Origin: Nitrosopumilus sp. LS_AOA
GTDB lineage: Archaea; Thermoproteota; Nitrososphaeria; Nitrososphaerales; Nitrosopumilaceae
Direction: 5' to 3'
Length of the DNA: 41,513 bases
Assembly (NCBI GenBank): GCA_001543015.1
Contig: LFLC01000066.1
Coordinates: 1-41,513 of the forward strand
Shown here: positions 24,566-41,513 of the stretch, in pieces
Numbering within the stretch: position 1 is the stretch's first letter
Layout: every line of letters starts with the position of its first letter
Translations under genes and position numbers: made by a program
Notes under the pieces: generated by a model
Database searches by the model: none
Seen by the model: only the letters and a program-made list of their open reading frames with translations
What the model was told of the DNA's origin: nothing

Positions 24566-25249
24566 TTAAGGAGATAAATCAGCACTTCCAAACAAAACAC
24601 TAAATGATTTACACCAAATCAGAACTTTACCATATTTGTCAAGATCAGTGTCATCTGGAATTTCATAGTTTTGATTTCCATTATTTGCTTTTAATGCTCC
24701 AAGATTGATAAACTCTAATGCATTTTCATCTGTTGCCAAGTAAACAAACAAGTCAGGACCATTAGTTGATTGAAAGTTCTCCAATCTTAAGACATTACTC
24801 CCATCATCAATTGGTATAGTATATGCAGTTCCTTGTGCATCATGAATTCCATCACCTGCGCCGATAAATTCACCAGAATATGAAATGAGTAGCATTTCAT
24901 TCATTGTTTCTTCCATCATAGTATCATCTTTTTCCATCATTGTTTCTTCCATCATAGTATCATCTTTTTCCATCATTGTTTCTTCCATCATAGTATCATC
25001 TTTTTCCATCATTGTTTCTTCCATCATAGTATCATCTTTTTCCATCATTGTTTCTTCCATCATAGTATCATCTTTTTCCATCATTGTTTCTTCCATCATG
25101 GTGTCGTCTTTTTCCATCATCGGTTGCAAAAGAGCACCACTTGGTAAAGCCTCATCTACAGTAGATTCTGTAAAATACGGAGATATTGCAAATGCAGTAA
25201 CTGTTCCAAATATCAATACTGCCACAATTGCTAACAATGATTTATTCAT
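24566..25249 (-). CDS. Exported DM13-domain protein with six-fold repeat
   Basis: The 227-residue product has an N-terminal signal or membrane anchor (SLLAIVAVLIFGTVTAFA, residues 4-21), a repeat region at 44-115 made of six copies of the 12-mer MMEKDDTMMEET, and a C-terminal DM13 domain (about 118-227) with FIGAGDGIHDAQGTAYTI, the GPDLFVYL strand, NYEIP and a single conserved-looking Cys in VLIWCKSFSVLFG. DM13 domains are proposed electron-transfer or redox modules. The Met/Asp/Glu-rich repeat could bind metal (Met for copper) by inference. Start chosen at MNKSLLAI; an upstream ATG at 25351 would place hydrophobic residues ahead of the signal. Confidence 0.85.
   Translation of the reverse strand: MNKSLLAIVAVLIFGTVTAFAISPYFTESTVDEALPSGALLQPMMEKDDTMMEETMMEKDDTMMEETMMEKDDTMMEETMMEKDDTMMEETMMEKDDTMMEETMMEKDDTMMEETMNEMLLISYSGEFIGAGDGIHDAQGTAYTIPIDDGSNVLRLENFQSTNGPDLFVYLATDENALEFINLGALKANNGNQNYEIPDDTDLDKYGKVLIWCKSFSVLFGSADLSP
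24905..25120 (-). repeat. Six tandem copies of a 36-bp coding repeat
   Basis: The repeat encodes the 12-residue unit above. Five copies look identical in DNA; the one nearest the gene start differs at three third-position bases (GGTGTCGTC against AGTATCATC on the plus strand). Such identity implies recent expansion or homogenisation and easy copy-number change. Confidence 0.95.
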
Positions 25250-25376
25250 AATTACAGCACCAGAATTTAGTATAAAACCTATTATCCATTTCTTATCCAA
25301 ATCTTTGAGAATAAAATAGAGTGATAGTTTTATTGTAATGAAACAGATCATCTTTTTGACATTATTTTTTTAATTT

Positions 25377-36911: not shown

Positions 36912-39900
36912 CTAGTCAGAATTTAATGATAAACCGACACATTCAAAAAATGTTCTATCTTTAATTTCTGAATCCCATTTTTGATGGAACTTGAAGGTTA
37001 AGAAACTATCATCTAAAAATAATTCATAATTACTTCGAGTACATTCTGAATAATTCCATTCTTGAATCAAAGAATTATTTCCTGTCAATACATTAACTGA
37101 AATATTAAATGGTTCAGGGGTTTTTCCAGGATTGATATATCGGCTTAACAGATCATAATACCAATCTTTGTCCTTGCTTGGTAATGATTCCAAATAGAAT
37201 GATTTAGTATCATCATCTAAGCTATTTGTAGGGCTCAAAAATCTTGATTCATCATTTGCAGGAACAAATTTTGAGAATGTATCTGAAGTTTTAGCAGGAG
37301 AAATGTCTGTTCCCTCAAATGTTATAGAAAAGGATATTGCACGTTCATCAAAAGTTGGAATTGGTTGGATTAAATTCTGAGAATATACATGGTCTGATGA
37401 GAACTTTGAGAGTAACCATCCTTTTTCCTCAAAAAGGGACAAATGTTCATCCTTAATGCATACTGCAATATCTTTTGGAGGTCTAATCATTACAGATTTC
37501 CCCTCATTACACACTGTTTGCTCATTTGGAATGTCAATTAGTCTCTGAGTTGATGGAGATAATTTTTTAAGATTTCCAGTATTATCAAATGTTGGATCTT
37601 TTAGTGGAGATACTATCAAATCCATGCCTATACAATCAAGGATTCCTTGAGAACGAATTTCAGGTTGTAGAGAGGGTACAAATTTTACATAAAAAATTTG
37701 ATCATTGTAAAATGTAGCAAAATCAGTTATTTTACAATCAGAATATTGTCCTGAAAACAAAACAGTGCCATCACCGGTAACTACATCATATCTAAAATCA
37801 AAATTCTCAGGGTCTTTACCAGTGTTTACATATTTTCCAACAAAATCATAAAAGTTTTCATTAATTACATTTGAGAGTCCAGTTAACATTAGATCATTTT
37901 CATCTAGTGTGTTTATTTTTTGAACTAGTGCAGTTGATTTTTGATTTTTAAATTCTCCACCGTCCACATGTGCCAAATAAAACATTGCTCTATCTGAATC
38001 ATCTAAAATAAAATTTACATTTTCATATTTTAAATTATTTTCATCAAAATCAACTGAAAAACCTACACAATCAAATGATGATTTATCTCTAATTTCAGAT
38101 GTTGCTTTTTTTCCATTCATGGTAAAATAAAGGAGGTTGTCTTGCATGTACGTATCAAAACTATCCAATTCGCATTTTGAGTATTCCCAAGATTGTAAAA
38201 TTGAACCATCACCAGTGACCAAGTCTACTGTAACATCAAATGGTTGAGGTTTTGCTATTCCAGGATTATAGTATTGACTTGCAAACTCGTAAAATTCTTC
38301 CTTGTCCTTGTTTGCCAAAGATTCCAAAGTGAATTGTAATGATTTTTGATGAGTGTTTGTTTGACTAATGGATAGATGTGGTTCATCTACTGCGACATAG
38401 TATGATGTACCAGGGGTTTCAGGAACTGGTTCAGGGGTAGGTTCATCAGGATCACAGTTAGGATTTTGTCCAGGATTGTCACAGGGTCCATTTCCAGGAT
38501 TGTCAGGATCACCAGGGTCTTCAGGATCAGTAGGTTCATCAGGATCACAGTTAGGATTTTGTCCAGGATTGTCACAGGGTCCATTTCTATTTCCATATAT
38601 TGTTGAAATATCATATTTTGAATTAGTAGATACAGTAGTACTTGTCGATGAACCCTCATCTTCAGTGGAATATACTGTAGCTTTACCCTCAACAAAACGA
38701 TATGAAGTCTCACCACGTTGCTCAATTGTTGGAATAAATTTTCCAACAGTATGCATGATTAGGGGTTTTGTAAAATCACCGTCAGACAATGTAACTACAA
38801 ATCTTTGAGTACGATCATCATTATTGGGGATAAAATCAGCATAACTTAATGCATGTTCTGGAGTATTCTGTTTAGTTTTAGTTGTTCCATCAAAAGCATA
38901 TCCATTACATTCAAAAATTGTTCTATCCCTAATCTCTGAATTAAATTCAGTTGTAAATTTTCGTTTGAATAATAAATCTTCCAAGAATGGTTTGTATTCT
39001 AAAACTTCACAATCAGTATACATCCATTCTTGAATAATTGTGTTATCACCAGTTACAACATTGATTGTAGTTGAAAAGGGTTCCGGGATAGAACCTGCAT
39101 TAATGTATCTGCTCATTAATTGATAATACCACTGATTATCTTTACTTGGAAGAGATTCCAAATAGAACTTTGGTTTTTCTCCATAAACATAATTTGGTAG
39201 TAATAGTGGTAGTTCTTCATTTGAAATTGGTGCGAATCTTGTAAAAGATGTTATAATTTTTTCAGGAGAAATATCGGGTCCTTCAAAAGATACAACAAAG
39301 AGTTGTGCTCGCTCAAAGTCATCAGGAATTATTGATTGAGTTTGTTTTGAATTTTCAGATTTTAAATCAAATTCTAATCCAGTACAATCAAAATTGGTTT
39401 TATCTCGAATTTCAGAACCAAATGTTTGTTTGAATTTAAAAAACAGTAAATTGTCAATAAAGAACGTAGAATAATTTGTTACAGAACATTCAGAATATTT
39501 CCAAGTTTGAATGATTTCTCCATCACCTGTAGCAAGATGAACAGATACATCAAATGGTTCAGGATCTTTTCCGGGAAGAATATACTTGCTAATTCCAACA
39601 TAGAGTTCTTCTTTGTCTTTACTTGGAAGGGATTGTAAGGAGAATGCAGGCTTTGCATCAATGGTGTATCCAGGCATAAAAATAGGCAAATTTCTAACTT
39701 GTTTGATTGGAGTAAATTTTGAAAAGGAGAGTGAAGGGATTGTATCCTCTAATGCCCCTCCTGAAAACTCTACAATGATTTGTTTTGCTTGAGTATTTTT
39801 AGGTGAAATAAAATCAGCAGTATCCAAAACTGAAGAACCATCATCTAGATTAAAATCGACTGTAAATCCTCCACAATCAAGTTTAGTTCTATCTCGAATT

Positions 39901-40547
39901 TCAGATGTCATTTCTCCTACAAATTTGAGTTTTGCAAGATTTTCATCAAGATATGGAAAATAATCAGTAACTACACAATCAGAGTAAAGCCATTTTTGAA
40001 GAGTCGATGTATCTCCAGTAATTATATCGACATCAACATCAAAGGGTTCAGGATCATCTCCAGAATTTATGTAACGTGAAATTATATTTTCATAAAACCA
40101 TCTATTTTCTGTACTCAATAGTGATTCAAGTTCTAGTCCTTTTTGAGATGATGAAGAATCACTATTTTGTAAATGGGTATATTTTTGAAAAGTTGTAAAG
40201 ATTTGTTTTTCTTTGATATCACCATTAGAAAAAGTCACTTTAAACACTAGTGCACGGTCATTATCTGAAACAATCACATCATCTGTAATGTATTTTGTAT
40301 CTTCATTGTATGCAGTAATGATTTCATTAATAGTAGAAGTATTATCAGTTACACCAGAAACAAGATATGGAGAAAAATCTCTTTCAAAGTATTGTAAGAT
40401 TCCAATTCCAAAATCATTTGCAGAGAAATAATATGGATCCCCCTCTACTGCAACAACAAATCCTGGAACTTGTTCTTCAGCATAAATTGTAGGAATCAAT
40501 ACTGTAGCAAAAATTATTGGTAAAATTAAATAAAATTTGAAATTCAT
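36912..40547 (-). CDS. Giant secreted protein with six copies of an unrecognised module
   Basis: The 1211-residue product starts with a signal peptide (about 1-23, ending IYAEEQ). Six related modules follow, five of them marked by a shared series: SLPSKDK-x-W/E-Y-Y, SRYINPGK-x-PEPF, VTGDGT, a W-x-YS-x-C cysteine, and SEIRD-x-T-x-F-x-C-x-G with a second cysteine; one further copy is more diverged. The paired cysteines per module suggest one disulfide each. A Pro/Asp/Asn-rich linker near the middle repeats the phrase GPCDNPGQNPNCDPDEPT. No membrane anchor is seen at the C-terminus. It is probably an extracellular adhesin or surface component; I recognise no family. Confidence 0.88.
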   Translation of the reverse strand: MNFKFYLILPIIFATVLIPTIYAEEQVPGFVVAVEGDPYYFSANDFGIGILQYFERDFSPYLVSGVTDNTSTINEIITAYNEDTKYITDDVIVSDNDRALVFKVTFSNGDIKEKQIFTTFQKYTHLQNSDSSSSQKGLELESLLSTENRWFYENIISRYINSGDDPEPFDVDVDIITGDTSTLQKWLYSDCVVTDYFPYLDENLAKLKFVGEMTSEIRDRTKLDCGGFTVDFNLDDGSSVLDTADFISPKNTQAKQIIVEFSGGALEDTIPSLSFSKFTPIKQVRNLPIFMPGYTIDAKPAFSLQSLPSKDKEELYVGISKYILPGKDPEPFDVSVHLATGDGEIIQTWKYSECSVTNYSTFFIDNLLFFKFKQTFGSEIRDKTNFDCTGLEFDLKSENSKQTQSIIPDDFERAQLFVVSFEGPDISPEKIITSFTRFAPISNEELPLLLPNYVYGEKPKFYLESLPSKDNQWYYQLMSRYINAGSIPEPFSTTINVVTGDNTIIQEWMYTDCEVLEYKPFLEDLLFKRKFTTEFNSEIRDRTIFECNGYAFDGTTKTKQNTPEHALSYADFIPNNDDRTQRFVVTLSDGDFTKPLIMHTVGKFIPTIEQRGETSYRFVEGKATVYSTEDEGSSTSTTVSTNSKYDISTIYGNRNGPCDNPGQNPNCDPDEPTDPEDPGDPDNPGNGPCDNPGQNPNCDPDEPTPEPVPETPGTSYYVAVDEPHLSISQTNTHQKSLQFTLESLANKDKEEFYEFASQYYNPGIAKPQPFDVTVDLVTGDGSILQSWEYSKCELDSFDTYMQDNLLYFTMNGKKATSEIRDKSSFDCVGFSVDFDENNLKYENVNFILDDSDRAMFYLAHVDGGEFKNQKSTALVQKINTLDENDLMLTGLSNVINENFYDFVGKYVNTGKDPENFDFRYDVVTGDGTVLFSGQYSDCKITDFATFYNDQIFYVKFVPSLQPEIRSQGILDCIGMDLIVSPLKDPTFDNTGNLKKLSPSTQRLIDIPNEQTVCNEGKSVMIRPPKDIAVCIKDEHLSLFEEKGWLLSKFSSDHVYSQNLIQPIPTFDERAISFSITFEGTDISPAKTSDTFSKFVPANDESRFLSPTNSLDDDTKSFYLESLPSKDKDWYYDLLSRYINPGKTPEPFNISVNVLTGNNSLIQEWNYSECTRSNYELFLDDSFLTFKFHQKWDSEIKDRTFFECVGLSLNSD
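38437..38587 (-). repeat. 58-bp exact direct repeat in the linker of the giant protein
   Basis: Bases 38437-38494 and 38530-38587 are identical over 58 bases and encode the duplicated GPCDNPGQNPNCDPDEPT phrase. This is a recent in-frame duplication within the Pro-rich linker. Confidence 0.9.
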
Positions 40548-40681: not shown

Positions 40682-41053
40682 ATGGGCATAAAGGAGAAAA
40701 TTTCAGGTACTGGTAGCACCATCAAAGACCAATTATCCCACATGAAAAAAGATACAGTTTGGCAAAAAGAACTCTTAGAATCAAAGGAAGCTATCTATAT
40801 CAAAACTCCTAGGTTTGCAGTACTAGTTAGAAAGAAGGGAAACGAAGTAGAATTTTTTGAAGCAGTAGATAAGATTACTGGTGAGGGTTACAGAATGATG
40901 CTTTACGAATTAATATCGGATCCGATCCCCATGGTAAAAGTGGATTTAATTAAAATCCGTGTCTATTATTTTCAAAATAAAAAATATATTTCATATATCT
41001 CAGAAGAAAAGAGTTCAGGTACAGTATTATGTACCAAATTACTATATTTGTAA
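40682..41053 (+). CDS. Small conserved-looking protein; C-terminus possibly chimeric
   Basis: The 123-residue product has a helical start and a beta-rich body (EAIYIKTPRFAVLVRKKGNEVEFFEAVD), with no signal. The TATA-like TTTTTATAATA lies 25 bases before the ATG at 40682, so the transcript is leaderless; the earlier in-frame ATGs at 40646 and 40664 fall on or before that box. From residue about 105 (after YYFQNKKY) the composition changes and the frame enters the foreign-looking end of the window, so the last 15-20 residues may not belong to the original protein. Confidence 0.6.
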   Translation: MGIKEKISGTGSTIKDQLSHMKKDTVWQKELLESKEAIYIKTPRFAVLVRKKGNEVEFFEAVDKITGEGYRMMLYELISDPIPMVKVDLIKIRVYYFQNKKYISYISEEKSSGTVLCTKLLYL

Positions 41054-41513
41054 ACTTATTCTGCATTGCGTAGAAATGAGTATGTGGGGCCAGTGGGACC
41101 CCAGGCTCCACTCATACTTCCAGGCCAAAATTATCAAAGATGGAATGGCTTTAGTAAATTTGATATTTAAATTGTCTCAGATGTGGCGAGACTCAGTTTC
41201 CTTTAATAGAATATACCGTATTTCTTCGAATAATCGCCCTCCCTCTAATAATCGCCTCCCTTCAACAGTCGCCCCCTTGAAAGTGGTCTGAAAATTGATA
41301 ATGGCTTAGTTTTGTATTTCGAATAAACGCCTCCCTCGAATAGCCCTCCCACTCCGAGAGGGTCTAAAAATTAATAATCGCTCCGGCTACTAATTGAAGA
41401 AATACGGTAATTCATAATAGATAATATAAACTTACTGTGTATTATTCAATGCTACAATAGTGCACTCTATACTACTGATATTAACAGCTACTCTGTCTAT
41501 ATTAGTACCGAAA
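41054..41513. other. Foreign-looking end segment, probably eukaryotic host DNA
   Basis: No archaeal gene is seen. The sequence has higher and patchier G+C, simple blocks such as CGCCTCCC, and a complete short inverted-repeat transposon of invertebrate type. A TGGGG...CCCCA hairpin lies at 41085-41103. An assembly join with host DNA is the best explanation; the exact boundary is somewhere between about 40970 and 41060. Confidence 0.7.
41216..41407. mobile_element. Short non-autonomous inverted-repeat transposon (MITE-like)
   Basis: The element is bounded by TA on both sides (41214-41215 and 41408-41409) and has terminal inverted repeats CCGTATTTCTTC and GAAGAAATACGG. Inside are repeated AATAATCGCC / CCTCCC phrases and no coding sequence. 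TA target duplication and this terminal sequence fit Tc1/mariner- or pogo-type MITEs, which I recall as common in cnidarian, sponge and other invertebrate genomes. About 192 bases. Confidence 0.75.

Follow-up and report, generated by a model that had tools for sequence, protein, structure and literature searches.

What is eukaryotic-type DNA with a transposon-like element doing at the end of an archaeal contig: did such DNA enter the genome, or did the assembly leave its true path? The window analyzed here is an entire contig of 41,513 bases (C22) from a draft archaeal genome (67 contigs, 98.6% complete, 1.93 Mb in total), and our own reading of its genes is that their content is that of an ammonia-oxidizing marine thaumarchaeon. 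The contig divides into an archaeal part (1–40995) and a foreign part of 518 bp (40996–41513, hereafter the tail). We consider it very probable that this right end is a misassembly, in which 518 bp of foreign, most likely eukaryotic, DNA follow the archaeal sequence, and that the true path lies in another contig of the same assembly (C6). Elsewhere in the archaeal part, a secreted-type protein at 24566–25351 carries a low-complexity repeat with many tandem copies of the unit MMEKDDTMMEET.

Composition of the tail and the gene that runs into it

The original prediction had described a change of base composition near 41 kb, and this was borne out: G+C content is 0.375 in the tail versus 0.314 genome-wide, and the tail fits an order-4 Markov model of the archaeal genome poorly (z = -3.8), with a worse fit in only 2 of 3,519 archaeal 518-bp windows (a set that excludes the masked contigs and contig C11, in which a 7–11 kb stretch has 46–54% G+C). 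Among the 134 contig ends of the assembly, it is the tail that fits the archaeal genome worst. Its 518 bp hold no convincing open reading frame, the longest open frame is without a Pfam match, and an imperfect hairpin, GAGTATGTGGGGCC...GGCTCCACTCATACTT, can be folded at 41077–41118; the loop region of this hairpin has no exact match in IMG/VR.

The last archaeal gene of the contig, on the forward strand, runs into this sequence. Its archaeal part (MGIKEK...QNKKYIS, 104 codons) spans 40682–40995, and after ...YYFQNKKYIS the frame of C22 continues for another 18–19 residues of unrelated sequence, the odd C-terminus noted at the outset. These residues lie past the stop position of the three relatives of this small protein in the genus, which end in ...YYYFQNKKYIK-stop, ...YYYFQKGSLIE-stop, and ...YYYFQHRNFIK-stop. 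Since the relatives stop at such ...YYYFQ-type ends while the C22 frame reads on, foreign DNA must start at most 1–2 codons from residue 104. The relatives were recovered by a whole-genome search, a contig-level search having returned none; just 3 of the 60 members of the genus have a protein of this kind (about 104 aa, ...GYxMxLxE...YYFQ...-stop), and a Pfam search with it found no family.

Contig C6 as the probable continuation of the archaeal path

When the 71 bases surrounding the join were searched against this genome, bases 1–17 of contig C6 (14,647 bases) proved identical to positions 40979–40995 of the window, in the same orientation. This exact overlap, AAAAAATATATTTCATA on the forward strand, marks the misjoin point and shifts the boundary, first placed at 40970, to 40995/40996. 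Past the 17 bases, C6 reads ATTATATG, which changes the ...ATT TCA TAT of the window to ...ATT TCA TAA; C6 thus completes a TAA stop codon, and in the joined reading of C22 and C6 the gene ends in ...QNKKYIS-stop, at the stop position of its relatives.

When both ends of all 67 contigs were compared pairwise, the only exact overlaps of at least ten bases were of 77, 72, 67, 19, and 17 bases, and none of 10–16 bases was found among the 134 ends, contigs C54 (2.6 kb) and C65 (2.9 kb), which are N throughout, being left out of the comparison. The overlaps elsewhere in the assembly are likely joinable as well (C58R–C14R, 77 bases; C55R–C20R, 72; C39R–C3R, 67; C30R–C4R, 19). In a simulation of 400,000 random contig starts against the 71-base join region, a 16-base match arose once and a 17-base match never. 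A 17-base overlap would be expected by chance over the 134 ends with a probability of about 3e-4 or less, a figure that serves as a guide only, as the cut site at 40995 was picked after C6 was known.

Reading frame, stop position, and paralogy are evidence independent of this overlap statistic. With regard to paralogy, the first gene of C6 (70–3471, minus strand, 1133 aa) encodes a protein that is 41% identical, across 924 aligned positions, to the product of the C22 gene at 36912–40547, which lies on the same strand and encodes a protein of 1211 aa with a secreted-type N-terminus and internal repeats; the two proteins have near-identical first 20 residues and almost the same signal sequence. 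The overlap, the restored stop, and the paralogous next gene together make C6 look like the natural neighbor of C22. Among relatives that match the C6 gene, the small gene was not found beside it; because no relative shows both flanking genes together, the case for the adjacency of C22 and C6 is built on overlap, frame, and paralogy.

The two large proteins belong to a secreted-type archaeal family with three members in this genome, of about 1100–1200 aa (window 36912–40547, C6 70–3471, and C20 9579–12908), whose close homologs occur in few relatives. They consist of tandemly arranged repeats, each about 150 aa long, that carry the motif SLPSKDKEWFY...RYINPG..PEPFDV...GD..LQ.W.Y..C, and these repeats show a weak, below-threshold likeness to the T4 gp19 tail tube (Pfam PF06841, E 0.0004–0.003).

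The inverted-repeat element and the source of the tail

The tail contains a MITE-like inverted-repeat element at 41214–41409 (196 bp in all), nonautonomous in that it encodes no transposase. Its ends, TACCGTATTTCTTC ... GAAGAAATACGGTA, form perfect 14-bp arms (41214–41227 and 41396–41409), or arms of 25 nt at 84% when mismatches are allowed. A complete 192-bp element with TA duplication had been proposed here: its length and its arms stand, 192 bp (41216–41407) lying between two TA dinucleotides, and the TA found at both ends doubles as the outer pair of the palindromic arms, so that a duplication is only a possible reading of it. Inside the element, 18-nt direct repeats of the TCGAATAATCGCCTCCC type extend over 41226–41350 on the forward strand, with copies at 41226, 41244, and 41319.

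When the tail was shuffled 1,000 times with its dinucleotides preserved, one shuffle contained a perfect inverted repeat of at least 14 bp, as did 3 of 600 archaeal windows, so that arms of this length are no more than moderately improbable when taken alone. By themselves, they are suggestive of a transposable element without proving one, and the internal direct repeats add to the case. The element resembles MITEs of the Tc1/mariner type in being short and noncoding, with terminal inverted repeats beside TA and with subterminal repeats, and it differs from them in that its perfect ends measure only 14 bp and that it is present as a single copy in this assembly. It may accordingly be a MITE formerly mobilized by a Tc1/mariner-like transposase. 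No description of this element was found in the literature, and an Rfam search returned nothing.

MITEs can occur in archaeal genomes and, as just seen, equally long inverted arms are met in archaeal windows, so that one might think of the tail as an intergenic stretch native to the archaeon, with a MITE of its own. This is barely conceivable: C6 provides the native continuation, which in the main refutes such a reading, and the composition of the tail departs from that of the genome to the extent given above, while a second copy is absent from both genome and family. Indeed, the tail has no match elsewhere in its own genome, and searches of 250 genomes of the family gave only short A+T-rich chance matches.

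Searches further afield yielded candidates that had to be set aside. Patterns for the element ends had 13 matches in GTDB, all single, the second arm being absent in each; two matches near contig ends in an archaeal MAG, Ods01, proved to be one short sequence present on two contigs, without the element; and three patterns run against IMG/VR gave 2, 8, and 0 matches, none of which extends past chance. In phages and plasmids, the tail had either no match or a chance match of 32 bases.

Animal genomes commonly contain short MITEs that are flanked by TA and have subterminal repeats, and it is for this reason that we favor a eukaryotic source. Our best guess is that the tail is eukaryotic DNA, as suggested by the MITE type and consistent with the negative searches in prokaryotes and viruses; the eukaryotic origin that had been proposed thereby fits all of these searches. 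As the searches covered prokaryotic, plasmid, and viral sequences only, and as prokaryotic collections are incomplete, the tail might instead be foreign DNA of a different prokaryote or of a virus present in the sample, a source we regard as unlikely given 518 bp with neither a Pfam match nor a convincing open reading frame, and pattern matches in GTDB and IMG/VR that are single, lack the second arm, and reveal no relative of the element. Such a source would leave the artifact itself unchanged. If the tail is eukaryotic, its carrier may have been a host, a passer-by in the water or sediment, or laboratory carry-over. A sponge or coral sample, or a symbiont lifestyle, does not follow from a tail of 518 bp, and the inference of a host exceeds the evidence.

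Probable misassembly, possible insertion, and the correction of the contig

Under the misassembly that we favor, an assembler or a chimeric read would have quit the archaeal path at the A+T-rich word AAAAAATATATTTCATA and run from there into an unrelated stretch of 518 bp, most likely eukaryotic DNA of the same sample. The misjoin may have arisen through an assembler walk across a shared word or through a chimeric read joined at a short shared word, the low complexity of the word being its presumed cause. The locus has in common with chimeric metagenome contig ends both a composition that shifts abruptly at a short word of low complexity and a truncated gene whose continuation starts another contig of the bin. 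Native sequence halts internally and its continuation is present elsewhere in the assembly, and the appended sequence is foreign to the genome in composition and in having no match in genome or family. An assembly chimera had been put forward as the most likely cause from the start, and the discovery of the true continuation at the start of C6 upholds this. Against misassembly, it must be said that the C22–C6 overlap is just 17 bases long, A+T-rich, and below usual assembly k-mers, and that relatives with matches to the C6 gene lack the small gene beside it.

A real insertion could likewise yield a branch in the assembly graph: were eukaryotic DNA with a MITE truly inserted at the gene end in part of the population, C6 would represent the empty-site allele, and the graph would be predicted to split at 40995 just the same, with C6 as the alternative route. 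We nonetheless hold this to be very improbable. The element sits 218 bp inside the tail, away from the junction, and, given this position, was not what brought about the join. Nothing tail-like occurs elsewhere in the genome or in the 250 relatives. Moreover, the foreign DNA does not have native DNA on both sides, as horizontal transfer would imply, since C22 ends inside it, and no contig end leads back to archaeal sequence by exact overlap.

With misassembly thus the preferred explanation, C22 is to be cut at 40995 and, given read support, joined to C6. Left untrimmed, the public genome shows this gene with a wrong terminus and wrongly suggests that an archaeon carries a eukaryotic-type element. 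Claims of this sort can be tested cheaply by looking through the remaining contig ends of the bin for the true continuation.
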